Assembly: GCA_014804425.1 (NCBI GenBank)
Contig: JAAUZV010000002.1
Coordinates: 77,308-141,307, forward strand
Length of the DNA: 64,000 nt
Reading direction: 5' to 3'
Source of the DNA: Lachnospiraceae bacterium
Lineage (GTDB): Bacteria > Bacillota > Clostridia > Lachnospirales > Lachnospiraceae
Shown: positions 9,268 through 16,433 of the stretch, piece by piece
Layout: every line of letters starts with the position of its first letter
How positions within the stretch are numbered: position 1 is the stretch's first letter
Notes under the pieces: generated by a model
Told to the model about the DNA's origin: nothing
Seen by the model: the letters and a program-made list of their open reading frames with translations, nothing else
Databases searched by the model: none
Made by a program: the position numbers and the translations under genes

Positions 9268-9449
9268 GGTAGATTTGTCTGTAAATGCTATTGAAAACTG
9301 GGCGGTATTGTCGATCCTGTCAGGGTGTATCCGGCACAAGGGATGAGACTCTTGCGCCATTTTATAAGGTCAATGTGAAAAGTTTTTTTACCCTTATTTT
9401 TACATTTTCTCTCAGATTTTCACATTAATTCACAGTGTCATAAAAATGA

Positions 9450-9478
9450 TTGACAAAAATACAATACTATAGTATCAT
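9450..9478 (+). promoter_or_regulatory. Sigma-A-like promoter for the 9772 gene/operon
   Basis: TTGACA (9450-9455), 17-nt spacer, TATCAT (9473-9478). Confidence 0.65.
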
Positions 9479-9484
9479 CGCTAA

Positions 9485-9620
9485 TATATTAAGTCATATA
9501 GCTTGAAAGATAAGCGGATGCTATCAATATTTGATAAGCGAGCAGATACCTCATCAAGAGGGATAGTCTGCCCTTTTGAAGATATTGATGTATCGGCTTT
9601 TTTGTTGTGCCGATTTTCCG
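9485..9620 (+). ncRNA. Candidate structured 5' leader (attenuator or cis-regulatory RNA)
   Basis: Nested complementarity: ATCAATAT(9523-9530)/ATATTGAT(9582-9589); GCAGA(9542-9546)/TCTGC(9567-9571); CCTC-ATCAA-GAGG(9549-9561); then ATCGGC(9592-9597)/GCCGAT(9609-9614) followed by TTTT. No ORF in this interval. Confidence 0.4.
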
Positions 9621-9771
9621 TTCTTTGACAACTTCATCCGCAAATTTGCCGGAAGACCGACCGGGTAAGTATCGCTATGACCTGCTGATGCTGTGAGCGT
9701 GCCAAGGAATCGTCCGACAAGGATTGCGACACAAAACGAAACCATTATTTTAAGAAAGAGAGGCACAGCTT

Positions 9772-11637
9772 ATGTCAAACTATATGATGAATTCAATGTT
9801 ACATGAAACGTCAAACGTGACGGTTTTGTCATTAAAACCGTGGGATGATACCTATGCCGGATCGGATACCGCCGTCAAAGCGGGGGTAAGGTTCCTGCAA
9901 TCGGCAGCCCTGCTTAAAAGAGAGCAATTTCTTGGCTTGCAGATTAAAAGGGACGAAGAAGGAAAAAGTCAAGTCTGCGCATTTTCAAGCATGGACGCAG
10001 AGGTGACCGCAGAGGATTTTATGTGGATGTTTCAAGGATGCGCGGATATTGGCTCATTTTCCGCAAACTCTCCCCTTATTCAGAACGGTAACCTAAACAA
10101 GATTTATGAATTGCGCTGGATACCCGGAAATACATGGGAACAACATGACAGCTATGGAAGCAAGCCGTTAAAATACAGCAGTTCAATTTCAAAGGACTAT
10201 TTTCTGCAGTTGCTTGATGAAATGAAAAAAAACGACGCAGCAATTCAGATCAGAGCCGGTGTAACGAATGATGGCATGGCTGCAGGAACGTTCACTTTAA
10301 TCCTGCCCGGCGAGATGCCCTTGAGGATGAGAACGATGCTCTCCCTGACTTTTCTGAACACAAAGGTGAGCATGCCATTTGGGAGCGCTGAAAGCCATAC
10401 CGACAACGCGATCCCGATGAAATGCCTGCTGGAGAGTATGTCGGAAATATTGGAAATGCTGATGAAGGAACGCCGTGAGGAGAAAACTGTCGAAGAAGAA
10501 CGTGATGGATTTGAGGATGGTTCCTTCAAACCCTTTGACCTTGAGCCAAAGTGCGATCCGGAAAGCAGTACGGAAGCTGACGGCTTCACACCGATTGATG
10601 AATTGGATTTAAGTATACGCCCCTATAATTGTCTAAAGAGGGCCGGAATTAACAGTGTAGAGGAACTCAGGCGTTTGAGCGATGAGGATTACCATCATAT
10701 TCGAAATTTGGGCAGGAGGAGTATTGAAGAGATCAAACAGAAGCTTTCAGAATTCGGGACTTTGACAGCGGCGCCGCTGCTGCCGGCACACGGTTATGCA
10801 GATGCGTTGAATGAACTGATCGGACTTAAGGAGGTAAAAGACCAGGTCCGGAAGATAACGGCATTTGTTAAGATGAAGCAGGATATGAAAAAACACGGCA
10901 TGCCTGAGACTCCTGCAGCATTCAACATGGAATTCGTTGGCAATCCCGGAACCGCAAAGACAACGGTAGCCCGGATACTGGCAGGTATTTTTTACGAGAT
11001 AGGCCTGCTTAACAGTAATGAAATTGTTGAAGTGGGACGGGCGGATCTGGTGGCCAAATATGTAGGTCAGACTGCCGATAAGGTAAAATCAGTGTTCCGG
11101 CGGGCCAAAGGAAAACTGTTATTCATAGACGAGGCATACTCCCTCGTGGAAAACGGGGAAGGGAAGTATGGGGACGAGGCGATCAACACGATTGTGCAGG
11201 AAATGGAGAATAACCGCAATGATACGATTGTCATTTTTGCAGGCTATCCTGACAAGATGAAAGAGTTCTTTTCCCGAAATCCCGGGTTGAGATCCCGCGT
11301 TCCGTTTCGCATTGTTTTCTCTGATTATTCCGCTGAAGAAATGGTTCAGATTATCGAATTGGAAGCCGGGAAAAGAGGTTTCTCGTTTGGAGCCAATGCC
11401 AGAGAGCTGGCATCATCCATTTGTAAGAAAGCGCTACGATACCCGGACGCGGGGAACGGACGTTTTTGCAGGAATCTGGTAGAAAATGCGATACTTAGAT
11501 ATGCTCTTCGAGTCTATGGAACGGATGACGAGGGAAGCGCAGACAAGGATTTCCTGTTGCAGGAGGAGGATTTTGCTTTCCCTGAAAATATGTCGGAAAT
11601 AAAGGGTTCCGCACCGATTGGTTTCAGAGTATCGTAG
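9772..11637 (+). CDS. CbbX/SpoVK-like AAA+ ATPase with N-terminal domain of unknown function and central RNAP alpha-CTD-like domain
   Basis: '[52 protein letters not shown]' (alpha-CTD-like), Walker A '[18 protein letters not shown]', Walker B '[11 protein letters not shown]', '[30 protein letters not shown]'. Confidence 0.88.
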
Positions 11638-11744
11638 TCGGAGCAAGATTTATGTATTTCCTGCCAACTGTTTTCATGCATATAAATGCGATTATGATTA
11701 AGAAAATGTAAGAGTAAAAATAAGAAAGAATAAAGGAACGAACG

Positions 11745-13802
11745 ATGAAAAAGGAAATAATAAAAGATCTGCAAAGCATTTTTCATGAATGTATTTCTGA
11801 ACTGAAAGCACTTGGTATTGCGGTGAATGATGAGACTTCGCTAGAACTTATATGCAAAACCGAACGGATACAAGATCCCGTCTACCTCCACTTTTTTGAT
11901 GATAGAACCGAGCTGACGGTTTCCGAGAAGCTGTTATCGTTTCCTTTGGATATTGCAAAGGCGGAGATTATCGGGAGCATTCTCAGTATAGATAATGGCA
12001 GGCAGATATATGGAAAAGGCTGGCTTGAAAAAGCGGCAAAGGTACAGCGTGCATATGGTTATGACATGTTGAATGAGCTCGATGAGGACAATTTGAACGG
12101 ACTTCCGGTAATTGGAATTTTGCGATGCAAAAAGTGCGGTTCCCGCTATGAATTAAGGGGGACGGAAAATTACAACGATTATCTCGATCATGGATGTACG
12201 GAAAAGCAGTGCAGGCATTGTGGAAGCCACATGTGGCCGGATATGCATGCGCCGGCTGACGGAGAACCGGATCTTCAGGCTTTACTGGAGGAATGTCTTG
12301 CAGAAGTACATGCCGCGGGCATCAAAACAAATCCCATCCGCTGCATCAGATGGAAAAAGCATTCCGCCGGTGCATGGGGGCAGTGCTGTGACCACGATGG
12401 TGAGTTTGAAATTCTGATAAATGAAATATATCGAAAGGGGAAAAAGGATCTTGCCCACTTAAAGGAAACGATGATCCATGAAATTCTTCATACCTGTGAT
12501 AGATGCCAAAATCATGGGCAGGAATTTTGGGATCATGCAAAGAAAATGGATGAAATGTATGGGTATCATATTTTTTCAACAGATTTAGAGGAAGAGGAAA
12601 CGTCAAAATCTCCTTTGCATCATCCTGTGATCTGTCCGAACTGCGGCATAAAGAGTGAGATTCATAGCAAAGACAGCTTTAAAATGTTGAAAGAAAAGAA
12701 GATTTTGTGCCAATACTGCCTTGTTCCGTATGTTTCCATAGAAAATTATGAGCAGGCTGTAAAAGAACTGCTGAAAGAGAAAAACCTTCAGACGATATTG
12801 GAGGAATGCACAGTCAGATTAAAGGAGCTTGGGATTCCAATCAGCGATCGAATACGGATTGAGTGGGTCCGCGAATATATAGAATTTGCCATATGTAAAA
12901 AGGAGAAGGATTGTTTCCTTATTCAGATTTCCGATCAATGTAAACAGATACAGATTTGTACGGATGATTTAAGAGATATGATCATCCACCAAATGCTTCA
13001 TACCTGTGACGGCTGTGATACCCATAGTCAGAAATGGGTGGATTATGCGAAACAGGTGGATGCTGCTTTTCATTATCAGGTAGCTGTCTGTAAATCGAAG
13101 TATGAATATTTCCATCACGATAAGCGGGTCAGAACTTTCATGAAATGCCATAAATGCGGTGCCTTAAGAACGGTAAGGGACGATGATCTCTATGATTCCT
13201 ATTCACGGGGAGAACATTGCACCTGTGACTGGTGCGGTTCCCAGATGCTTCTTATTGACAAAAAAAGAAGCAAAGTCCATAATCTAAATAAGCTGCTGAA
13301 GCAGTGTATCAGTGAATTGGAGGCCATAGAGATTTATGCCGGAAAGATTGTAAATATCATTTATGTGTTCCTTGGCAAAGATTATGGAGAATGTATTCCG
13401 ATTGATGACGATAAGTATGAAATCCAGATTCCCTATGAATACAGGAAGAATACCACTGATGAAAAACGGCTGAAAGCCCTGATCATTCATCAGATACTAC
13501 ATACCTGTACAGAGAGTGGCAAGCATAACAGACAGTGGATGGTCTATGCAAGAGAGATAGAGGAAGCATATGGATATGAGATATTGAGGGATTGCCCTTT
13601 TGACCCGTTAAATATGTGGAAGGTTGAAAGTGTGTACAAAGGCACATGCCCCAATTGCGGATGCAGGGTGGAGATTAAGGGAGAGCGAAATCTTGCTTAT
13701 ATCCTCAACCATCATAAGAGATTTTGCAGCTTTTGCTCCGCTGATCTTGAAATCATGGAGAATGTGGATGCGGCGACAAGGATGCGCTTAAATCATATAT
13801 GA
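11745..13802 (+). CDS. Multi-unit SprT-like/zinc-ribbon protein (putative metalloprotease-related)
   Basis: 'IHEILHTCDRCQNHGQEFWDHAKKMDEMYGYHI', 'IHQMLHTCDGCDTHSQKWVDYAKQVDAAFHYQV', 'IHQILHTCTESGKHNRQWMVYAREIEEAYGYEI', each followed by Cx2C...Cx2C ribbons; a fourth N-terminal unit lacks the His motif. Confidence 0.82.
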   Translation: MKKEIIKDLQSIFHECISELKALGIAVNDETSLELICKTERIQDPVYLHFFDDRTELTVSEKLLSFPLDIAKAEIIGSILSIDNGRQIYGKGWLEKAAKVQRAYGYDMLNELDEDNLNGLPVIGILRCKKCGSRYELRGTENYNDYLDHGCTEKQCRHCGSHMWPDMHAPADGEPDLQALLEECLAEVHAAGIKTNPIRCIRWKKHSAGAWGQCCDHDGEFEILINEIYRKGKKDLAHLKETMIHEILHTCDRCQNHGQEFWDHAKKMDEMYGYHIFSTDLEEEETSKSPLHHPVICPNCGIKSEIHSKDSFKMLKEKKILCQYCLVPYVSIENYEQAVKELLKEKNLQTILEECTVRLKELGIPISDRIRIEWVREYIEFAICKKEKDCFLIQISDQCKQIQICTDDLRDMIIHQMLHTCDGCDTHSQKWVDYAKQVDAAFHYQVAVCKSKYEYFHHDKRVRTFMKCHKCGALRTVRDDDLYDSYSRGEHCTCDWCGSQMLLIDKKRSKVHNLNKLLKQCISELEAIEIYAGKIVNIIYVFLGKDYGECIPIDDDKYEIQIPYEYRKNTTDEKRLKALIIHQILHTCTESGKHNRQWMVYAREIEEAYGYEILRDCPFDPLNMWKVESVYKGTCPNCGCRVEIKGERNLAYILNHHKRFCSFCSADLEIMENVDAATRMRLNHI

Positions 13803-13879
13803 TAAGAGAGACTGCGGTCCGGGTGATCAGTACAATTTCAAAGAGTATTTAATAAATATGGAAAGCAGGATGAAAACAC

Positions 13880-15511
13880 ATGTTGAGCAATGTGAAAAAT
13901 AGTATTAATGATTTGCAATTAACAGTTTTGCAGGATTTTTTTGAACTTCGGATGAGGGAATACGCTGGGGATTCCTGGAAACAGGAAGTAAAACAGGTAG
14001 TTACGAAAAGGTCACTGGCGAATGATCAGTATTCTCCTACCTATCGGAGTGTTTATGATGTCATTAAAGAGAAGGGGATTGAAACGATCAATAAAAGATC
14101 ATTCGATATTACCCTTGTTACGGCTTTCCTGATGTTTGATTTTCATGATGAGTGTAAAGTCGGAACCGCATTTAAGAAACAGATCAAATGCATCAGAGAG
14201 GATAAAAATGGATTTATCAGTCACAATTCTGATATGGAAGATAGATTGACAAACAGTATCATGGCTTTATCCTGCTTGAAAAACCTGAAGATATTTGTGG
14301 AGTACTTAGAACAAGCCGATTGGAGCGGGAGTGATAAGGAATTATTTGTAGAGACATATAAGAATAAAGTGAATCGGGTGATACAGGAGTTTTATGCCAA
14401 TATTGAGGATCGTGAATTAGAAGCGATCGAAATAAAAAGTGATGTCGATGTTTATTTGAAGGGGATTCTTCAAGAGCAGGAAGAACATGCGGAACAGTAC
14501 ATACCCTTATCTTATAAGAGATTGGATAATTTGAATGATCAATATGATCTTGAGGAGATCAACAAACAAAATAAGAGAGGGTTTGTGCTATTTGCGGAGG
14601 CAGGTTACGGAAAAACATGGAGCTTGCTAAAACTGGCGTCAGGCTATGCGGATGATTACTTAAATGCGAAATCAGACGTGATTCCGATTTTTATCAAGAT
14701 GGGGCAAGTAGCATCGGATAGCAGACAGATCATTAGAGAATATATAAGGGAAAAGCTTTTTGGCAATAAAATACAAAATGATGATGTCATTTCCTTTCTC
14801 AGAAAGAATCAAATCGTGCTGTTTATTGATGGATTTGATGAGGCGATATCAAGCGTAAAAGAAGCAGTGAAAGCCGAAATGGCTGGCTTGTTCTCGGATT
14901 ATAAACAGATTGCGATCATTGGTGGAACCCGGGAAGCGGATCGATTCAAATTTCCTGAGAAACTGGTGCAATATCATATTTGCGATCTGTCGGAATGGCA
15001 GTTGGAACAATTTGTGGAGAAGTTTGTCGAGCCGCAATATAGGGAGAAGGTGAAAGGGCTTTTATTGAATCCGGATAGCTTTTTTTCTAAAATAAGAACG
15101 CCGTTTTATATAACCTGTTATGCGAATATTGTGAATGAAGGAGTGGTAAGTCCAAGTTCCATTACAGAGATTGTTTCTATATGCTTAGATAAGATGATCG
15201 AAAGAGAAATTCGGATAAAAGGATTTCATTGCACAGAAGCGTACATGAATGAATTTTTGTTCGCGTTTGGCAGTGCTTTGGGAGAAAAAAGCAGTATGTT
15301 AGAAAGGGAAGCATTGCAGATGATAGAAAGTCAGACAAAAAACACGATTCCGGAAGGCGTCAGTATCTCAGCAGTGGAGGAGCGTCTGATAGAGATGCAT
15401 GTGATAAAAGCTTACATGGCAGGCAGAAAAAAATATTTAGCGTTTCATTCTGTGCACTACAGAATGTTGTTTTCTGAAACGGGAAACGATGATTCACTTT
15501 TGGACTTTTAA
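13880..15511 (+). CDS. NACHT-like STAND NTPase
   Basis: Walker A 'FAEAGYGKTWSLLKLA', Walker B 'VLFIDGFDEA', 'VIPIFIKMG', sensor-like 'AIIGGTRE'. Confidence 0.75.
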   Translation: MLSNVKNSINDLQLTVLQDFFELRMREYAGDSWKQEVKQVVTKRSLANDQYSPTYRSVYDVIKEKGIETINKRSFDITLVTAFLMFDFHDECKVGTAFKKQIKCIREDKNGFISHNSDMEDRLTNSIMALSCLKNLKIFVEYLEQADWSGSDKELFVETYKNKVNRVIQEFYANIEDRELEAIEIKSDVDVYLKGILQEQEEHAEQYIPLSYKRLDNLNDQYDLEEINKQNKRGFVLFAEAGYGKTWSLLKLASGYADDYLNAKSDVIPIFIKMGQVASDSRQIIREYIREKLFGNKIQNDDVISFLRKNQIVLFIDGFDEAISSVKEAVKAEMAGLFSDYKQIAIIGGTREADRFKFPEKLVQYHICDLSEWQLEQFVEKFVEPQYREKVKGLLLNPDSFFSKIRTPFYITCYANIVNEGVVSPSSITEIVSICLDKMIEREIRIKGFHCTEAYMNEFLFAFGSALGEKSSMLEREALQMIESQTKNTIPEGVSISAVEERLIEMHVIKAYMAGRKKYLAFHSVHYRMLFSETGNDDSLLDF

Positions 15512-15531
15512 TGTTTCTGAGGTAGGGATCG

Positions 15532-16362
15532 GTGAAAAAAACGTATTGCGATCATCATGAACTTGTAGTGTTTCCTGATGATTTTAAGGAAAAGAAAATA
15601 TATCAGATTTGCTCCGACTTATATGTCTCGGAAAGAAAAATGGGCGAATTGATCACTTGTTTTAACAAAGCGTATATGTCAGGTGCATGGTCGCTGGAGC
15701 AATTAGAAACGCAGATATGGAAAGTGTTTTGGGTGAATCCGTTCATCGCGGTCAAAATGTTTGAAAGCTGTTGTTTATATGAAACGGTGAATCTATACGG
15801 GGCATTAAAATCGGTTTGGTATGGCCTGTTTGATCCTGATCGCATGGGCAGGCAAAGCAGTCCGGATCAATATATACAAGTTGACAAGCTGCAATTTACT
15901 GTGTTGATGATCGTTGTTTGTTTTTCGACGATCGTGCAGAGTGACAGAGATAACCGGCATGTGATTGACGCAATGCTAAAGTATGCATATGGCTTATATA
16001 GCAAAGCGGGAGTAGCTTGTTTTTCTGCCAGAAATTTGTACTTTATATACTATCATATACCGAATCAATACAAAATTAAATTCTTGAATTGGTTTTGCAA
16101 AAAGTACAGGTATGAGGCGGCCGCGAAAAGGGTGAATAAATACGGAAAGAAGACGACAGATAAACCGTTGCGATGCATTAAGACGATTGTGGAGGAGACA
16201 AAGACAGACTGTTTATGGAAATATTTCAGTGATGAAAATGGGGATGAATATGCCGAGGTTGTGCAAATTCTTCGGGAGGAGCATGAGGATTTTCTTTTTT
16301 CCATCTTAGGCGGAGATGATATGGAGAAGAAAATAGAACGGATAGAGGCTTATGCGGGCTGA
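15532..16362 (+). CDS. Hypothetical protein, partner of the NACHT-like NTPase
   Basis: ORF with GTG start 20 nt after the previous stop; no recognised domain. Confidence 0.65.
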   Translation: MKKTYCDHHELVVFPDDFKEKKIYQICSDLYVSERKMGELITCFNKAYMSGAWSLEQLETQIWKVFWVNPFIAVKMFESCCLYETVNLYGALKSVWYGLFDPDRMGRQSSPDQYIQVDKLQFTVLMIVVCFSTIVQSDRDNRHVIDAMLKYAYGLYSKAGVACFSARNLYFIYYHIPNQYKIKFLNWFCKKYRYEAAAKRVNKYGKKTTDKPLRCIKTIVEETKTDCLWKYFSDENGDEYAEVVQILREEHEDFLFSILGGDDMEKKIERIEAYAG

Positions 16363-16390
16363 TGACGAATATAAGGCAGCATGAGCTGCT

Positions 16391-16433
16391 ATAAAAACAG
16401 TTTTTATTTGAAGTGATGCTTTTAAAAAAGCAT
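16391..16433 (+). terminator. Possible transcript end after the NACHT operon (two A/T-rich hairpins)
   Basis: ATAAAAACagTTTTTAT and ATGCTTTTaaAAAAGCAT inverted repeats. Confidence 0.4.

Follow-up and report, generated by a model that had tools for sequence, protein, structure and literature searches.

A rare tandem member of the SprT-like family: four units, one chain and a single complete catalytic signature

In human SPRTN (Spartan), the protease domain is followed by a zinc-binding, DNA-binding domain, and E112Q is a standard catalytically inactive form (PMC9867749). SPRTN combines a single SprT unit with DNA-binding regions and PCNA, p97 and ubiquitin motifs. Stand-alone bacterial members of Pfam family PF10263 (~165-210 aa) display, in order, a helix Cys, WGxC, HExxH...H and a CxxCG...CxxC ribbon. 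The minigluzincins selecase, abylysin and jannalysin are single domains of ~110 residues without a ribbon. In the unrelated ADAM family, some members are HQxxH pseudo-metalloproteases that have been suggested to act as decoys; across broken HExxH sites at large, Gln is the commonest substitute for that Glu (PMC3650047). The literature searched, in partial coverage, yielded no report of tandem SprT units. Here we describe a new and rare tandem variant of SprT-like proteins, encoded within a window of 64,000 nucleotides, the whole stretch of DNA analysed.

The gene occupies 11745..13802 on the plus strand and is a complete open reading frame (ORF) of 685 aa with an ATG start and zero internal stops over 685 codons. 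The sequence AAAGGA 5' of the ATG is a plausible ribosome-binding site. The gene is present in one copy in the source genome (3.4 Mb, 27 contigs). Its product consists of four homologous SprT-like/zinc-ribbon units of 165-178 aa each: unit 1 (U1; aa 1-172, 11745..12260), unit 2 (U2; aa 173-342, 12261..12770), unit 3 (U3; aa 343-507, 12771..13265) and unit 4 (U4; aa 508-685, 13266..13802), all on the plus strand. Aligned end to end, the four units share 12 invariant columns, among them the helix-1 Cys and the four ribbon Cys. A Cys4 zinc ribbon lies at the C-terminal side of all four units, as in bacterial SprT-like members. The ribbon columns, invariant in every unit, are C128/C131/C156/C159 in unit 1 numbering; the corresponding residues are C297/C300/C322/C325 in unit 2 (12633..12719, plus strand), C468/C471/C494/C497 in unit 3 (13146..13235, plus strand) and C635/C638/C661/C664 in unit 4 (13647..13736, plus strand).

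Family membership was assessed by profile and by structure. The Pfam SprT-like model PF10263 matched three stretches of the protein (E=2.8e-9; 37.2 bits against a cut-off, the gathering score, of 25.6). Unit 1 was recovered at E=2.8e-14 by a profile built from units 2-4 and four single-unit relatives; since this profile lacks unit 1 and still finds it, unit 1 does belong to the family, though in derived form. An AlphaFold prediction for unit 2 (pLDDT 86.2) shows the SprT fold, with human SPRTN (6mdw) as its top PDB match (Foldseek E=4.2e-5, probability 1.00) and phage SprT-like proteins as its top viral matches. The unit 1 model is weaker: its pLDDT is 79.5, and it matched selecase and SPRTN with probabilities of 0.97-1.00 but E values of ~0.01. 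A phmmer search of the PDB gave zero matches for the protein, and SPRTN was matched there weakly, by profile search only. PADLOC, PHROGs and NCBIfam named nothing useful for it, the PADLOC models being without a match. The original prediction had read the chain as four tandem SprT-like/zinc-ribbon units; the four-unit alignment, the Pfam match and the profile lacking unit 1 bear out the tandem organization, and the Pfam score and the SPRTN fold match bear out the SprT-like assignment.

The motif states proposed at the outset were confirmed at the level of residues and codons. Unit 2 carries WGQC and HEILHTC (from aa 245); its intact HExxH is HEILH (12477..12491, plus strand; CAT GAA ATT CTT CAT), with Glu246 at the position of the catalytic Glu. 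In unit 3, HQMLHTC begins at aa 415, and the HQMLH core (12987..13001, plus strand; CAC CAA ATG CTT CAT) has Gln (CAA) for the catalytic Glu. In unit 4, HQILHTC begins at aa 582, and HQILH (13488..13502, plus strand; CAT CAG ATA CTA CAT) has the same replacement, encoded by CAG. Each Gln codon is a single G-to-C change away from a Glu codon. The third His is retained in units 2 to 4 (HGQEF, with H257, in unit 2; HSQKW in unit 3; HNRQW in unit 4). Unit 1 has neither HExxH nor the third His, reading EIIGSILSI where the motif is expected, and keeps its ribbon. HExxH plus a third His is thus found in unit 2 only, units 3 and 4 having HQxxH plus His and unit 1 none of these. These states support one complete catalytic signature and three units predicted to be non-catalytic, as the original prediction proposed. 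Units 3 and 4 are predicted to be inactive because the same change inactivates SPRTN. That Gln recurs is weak evidence for selection, since Gln is the commonest replacement generally.

Units 3 and 4 each keep seven of seven metal ligands against a background identity to unit 2 of 21-26% (binomial P = 2e-5 and 9e-5, respectively, both only approximate, as the motifs themselves influence the alignment). Such retention at low background identity favours conserved zinc binding over simple decay. On these residues, metal binding by the His triads of units 3 and 4 and by all four ribbons is plausible.

The breadth of the family rests on profile searches of ~1,300 distinct sampled genomes; a first scan of sampled genome contigs had returned zero relatives. 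In the profile searches, relatives were thinly spread, and almost all came from the same family and class. Most are stand-alone proteins of ~165-210 aa. Sorted by number of units, the homologues are mostly single-unit, with one three-unit tandem. HExxH is present in 21 readable single-unit relatives, so that a family generally lacking the motif is not what was found; it is absent from one, G1264, which reads QGVFH. Since single-unit relatives nearly always have HExxH, motif loss occurs mostly in the tandem context. A tblastn search of 50,697 phage records and 72,556 plasmid records gave no match. The degenerate stand-alone unit of G1264 (L089:6980-7519, minus strand) lies directly 5' of a gene for a transposase-like protein of 607 aa without a Pfam match, and a TniB-like ATPase also adjoins (E=1.2e-10); this unit is possibly a transposon accessory. 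In G489, a protein of 783 aa (L041:4362-6713, minus strand) has a SprT-like unit at its C terminus, with HELLH, in addition to helicase motifs (GSGKT, DEAH).

The second tandem protein (L040:762-2042 of G352) comes from another genus of the same family and has three units in 426 aa. Its first unit has HQLLH and a third His without a ribbon, its second has HELLH with a ribbon, and its third has neither motif nor ribbon. In both tandem proteins, from two genera, the catalytic signature is complete in just one unit, and HQxxH occurs in one unit or more. As this shorter protein of another genus has the same mixture of motifs, the four-unit chain appears to be a genuine, if rare, architecture and not the product of decay. 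Three paralogous proteins of ~380-480 aa are encoded 3' of the G352 tandem gene (L040:2481-8504); the two that were tested match no Pfam family.

Identity is 20-30% both between units and between units and single-unit relatives. Recent tandem duplication was rejected at this identity, and the duplications that produced the units must be old. Ten canonical proteins with a single unit cluster together with support of 96/98. The four units of the 685-aa protein, the G352 units, G192 and G1264 fall outside this group, in an internal order without resolution, and clade tests reject neither one nor two multiplications of units in the two tandem proteins.

The gene lies in a strain-variable island of ~7.1 kb (9272..16423). 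Upstream is a SpoVK/CbbX-like AAA ATPase joined to a domain that resembles the C-terminal domain of RNA polymerase alpha (9772..11637, plus strand; E=1.5e-21). Downstream is a NACHT NTPase of 543 aa (13880..15511, plus strand; Pfam NACHT E=3.2e-8). The last ORF of the island (15532..16362, plus strand) has a GTG start and encodes 276 aa of no known family. It starts 20 bp after the NACHT gene, and the pair is possibly a two-gene NACHT unit. In the congener G302 the island is missing; ~0.97 kb with a P-type-ATPase-like (HAD) remnant takes its place between flanks that are 93-94% identical. This other DNA at the same spot points to a possible hotspot for insertions. In G300 the island is present, with the AAA, NACHT and 276-aa proteins intact (93-96%), and all that is left of the SprT gene is a 145-bp scrap of unit 4 (L009:10519-10662, 96% identical) between two deletions. 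The states of these two congeners make the SprT gene variable cargo whose neighbours can remain when it is gone. Full-length orthologues of the four-unit protein were not found; G300, in which the gene is deleted, is the sole island-bearing congener. Bacterial NACHT proteins can have anti-phage activity (PMC12169576), and the NACHT neighbour is suggestive of a defence locus, which the island may be. The NACHT and AAA neighbours likewise point to a possible conflict-related role for the SprT chain.

What might such a chain do? From its WGxC, HExxH and third His, unit 2 is a probable SprT-type zinc endopeptidase of minigluzincin fold, expected to hydrolyse protein. Units 3 and 4, with a zinc triad and no general base, would bind zinc, and perhaps peptide, without cutting, and unit 1 would retain only the fold and the structural ribbon. 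The dead modules would most likely be protein-binding arms that hold or select substrate for unit 2, or docking modules for it. We give an even chance to the reading that combines these elements, in which one catalytic unit works with zincin modules that do not cut but hold or select its protein substrates, or dock with or regulate unit 2. The degenerate stand-alone relative in G1264 counts against this reading. The whole would probably be a regulatory protease of the cytosol and part of the variable cargo, not a housekeeping DNA-protein-crosslink protease.

Unlikely, in our judgement, is the proposal that the dead units mainly inhibit or gate unit 2, a form of pseudoenzyme control, instead of binding substrate. 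The covalent joining of one active and several inactive copies in both tandem proteins suits such a regulator, but pure inhibition would not need the zinc triad that units 3 and 4 keep. Relaxed selection, with the extra units as decaying protease copies in a dispensable island gene, is improbable. It would account for the deletion of the gene in G300, the lack of the whole island in G302, the lost triad of unit 1 and the bare third unit of G352. However, the 685-aa frame is open, the four ribbons and the His triads of units 3 and 4 are intact despite 20-30% identity, and the same motif mixture occurs in another genus. A more specific form of the substrate-holding reading is decidedly improbable: the E-to-Q modules would be natural substrate traps that offer one particular protein, such as a phage or host factor, to the active unit, as part of a conflict system with the NACHT and AAA proteins.

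The original prediction had also suggested DNA-binding beads. Units 1 to 4 are acidic (net -8, -8, -1 and -1; pI 5.3-6.8), whereas the canonical relatives with a single unit have a strongly basic character (net +5 to +16, pI 8.8-9.7); judged on net charge, none of the four has a basic DNA-binding surface of the SPRTN type. The G352 units differ in sign (+6, +2 and -4), so the charge shift is not uniform across tandem proteins. The acidic units disfavour both the beads and an SPRTN-like role in crosslink repair, although charge is not a binding test. A protease directed at DNA or DNA-protein crosslinks is very unlikely: SPRTN is the closest solved structure, and the ribbons sit behind the protease domain, where SPRTN has its zinc-binding DNA-binding domain (PMC9867749), but the units are net acidic and there is no basic tail.

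To inactivate zincins such as SPRTN, biochemists introduce this same E-to-Q replacement. A chain that combines one active unit with two that are E-to-Q by nature would allow a direct test of whether pseudoproteases hold substrate or regulate a sibling, and the three-unit protein of the other genus makes the pattern of one active unit with HQxxH units testable by comparison.

Set against known systems, the units follow the same order of elements as the stand-alone PF10263 members, and unit 2 has every one of their signature residues; unlike them, the protein has four units per chain, three without the catalytic Glu, and is acidic, not basic. SPRTN (6mdw, 6mdx) resembles unit 2 in fold and matches weakly by profile, and has no tandem units. 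The minigluzincins share the compact catalytic fold matched by the unit 1 and unit 2 models. The ADAM pseudo-proteases likewise have Gln for Glu at HExxH with the metal His kept (PMC3650047), but among them dead and active domains do not share a chain.
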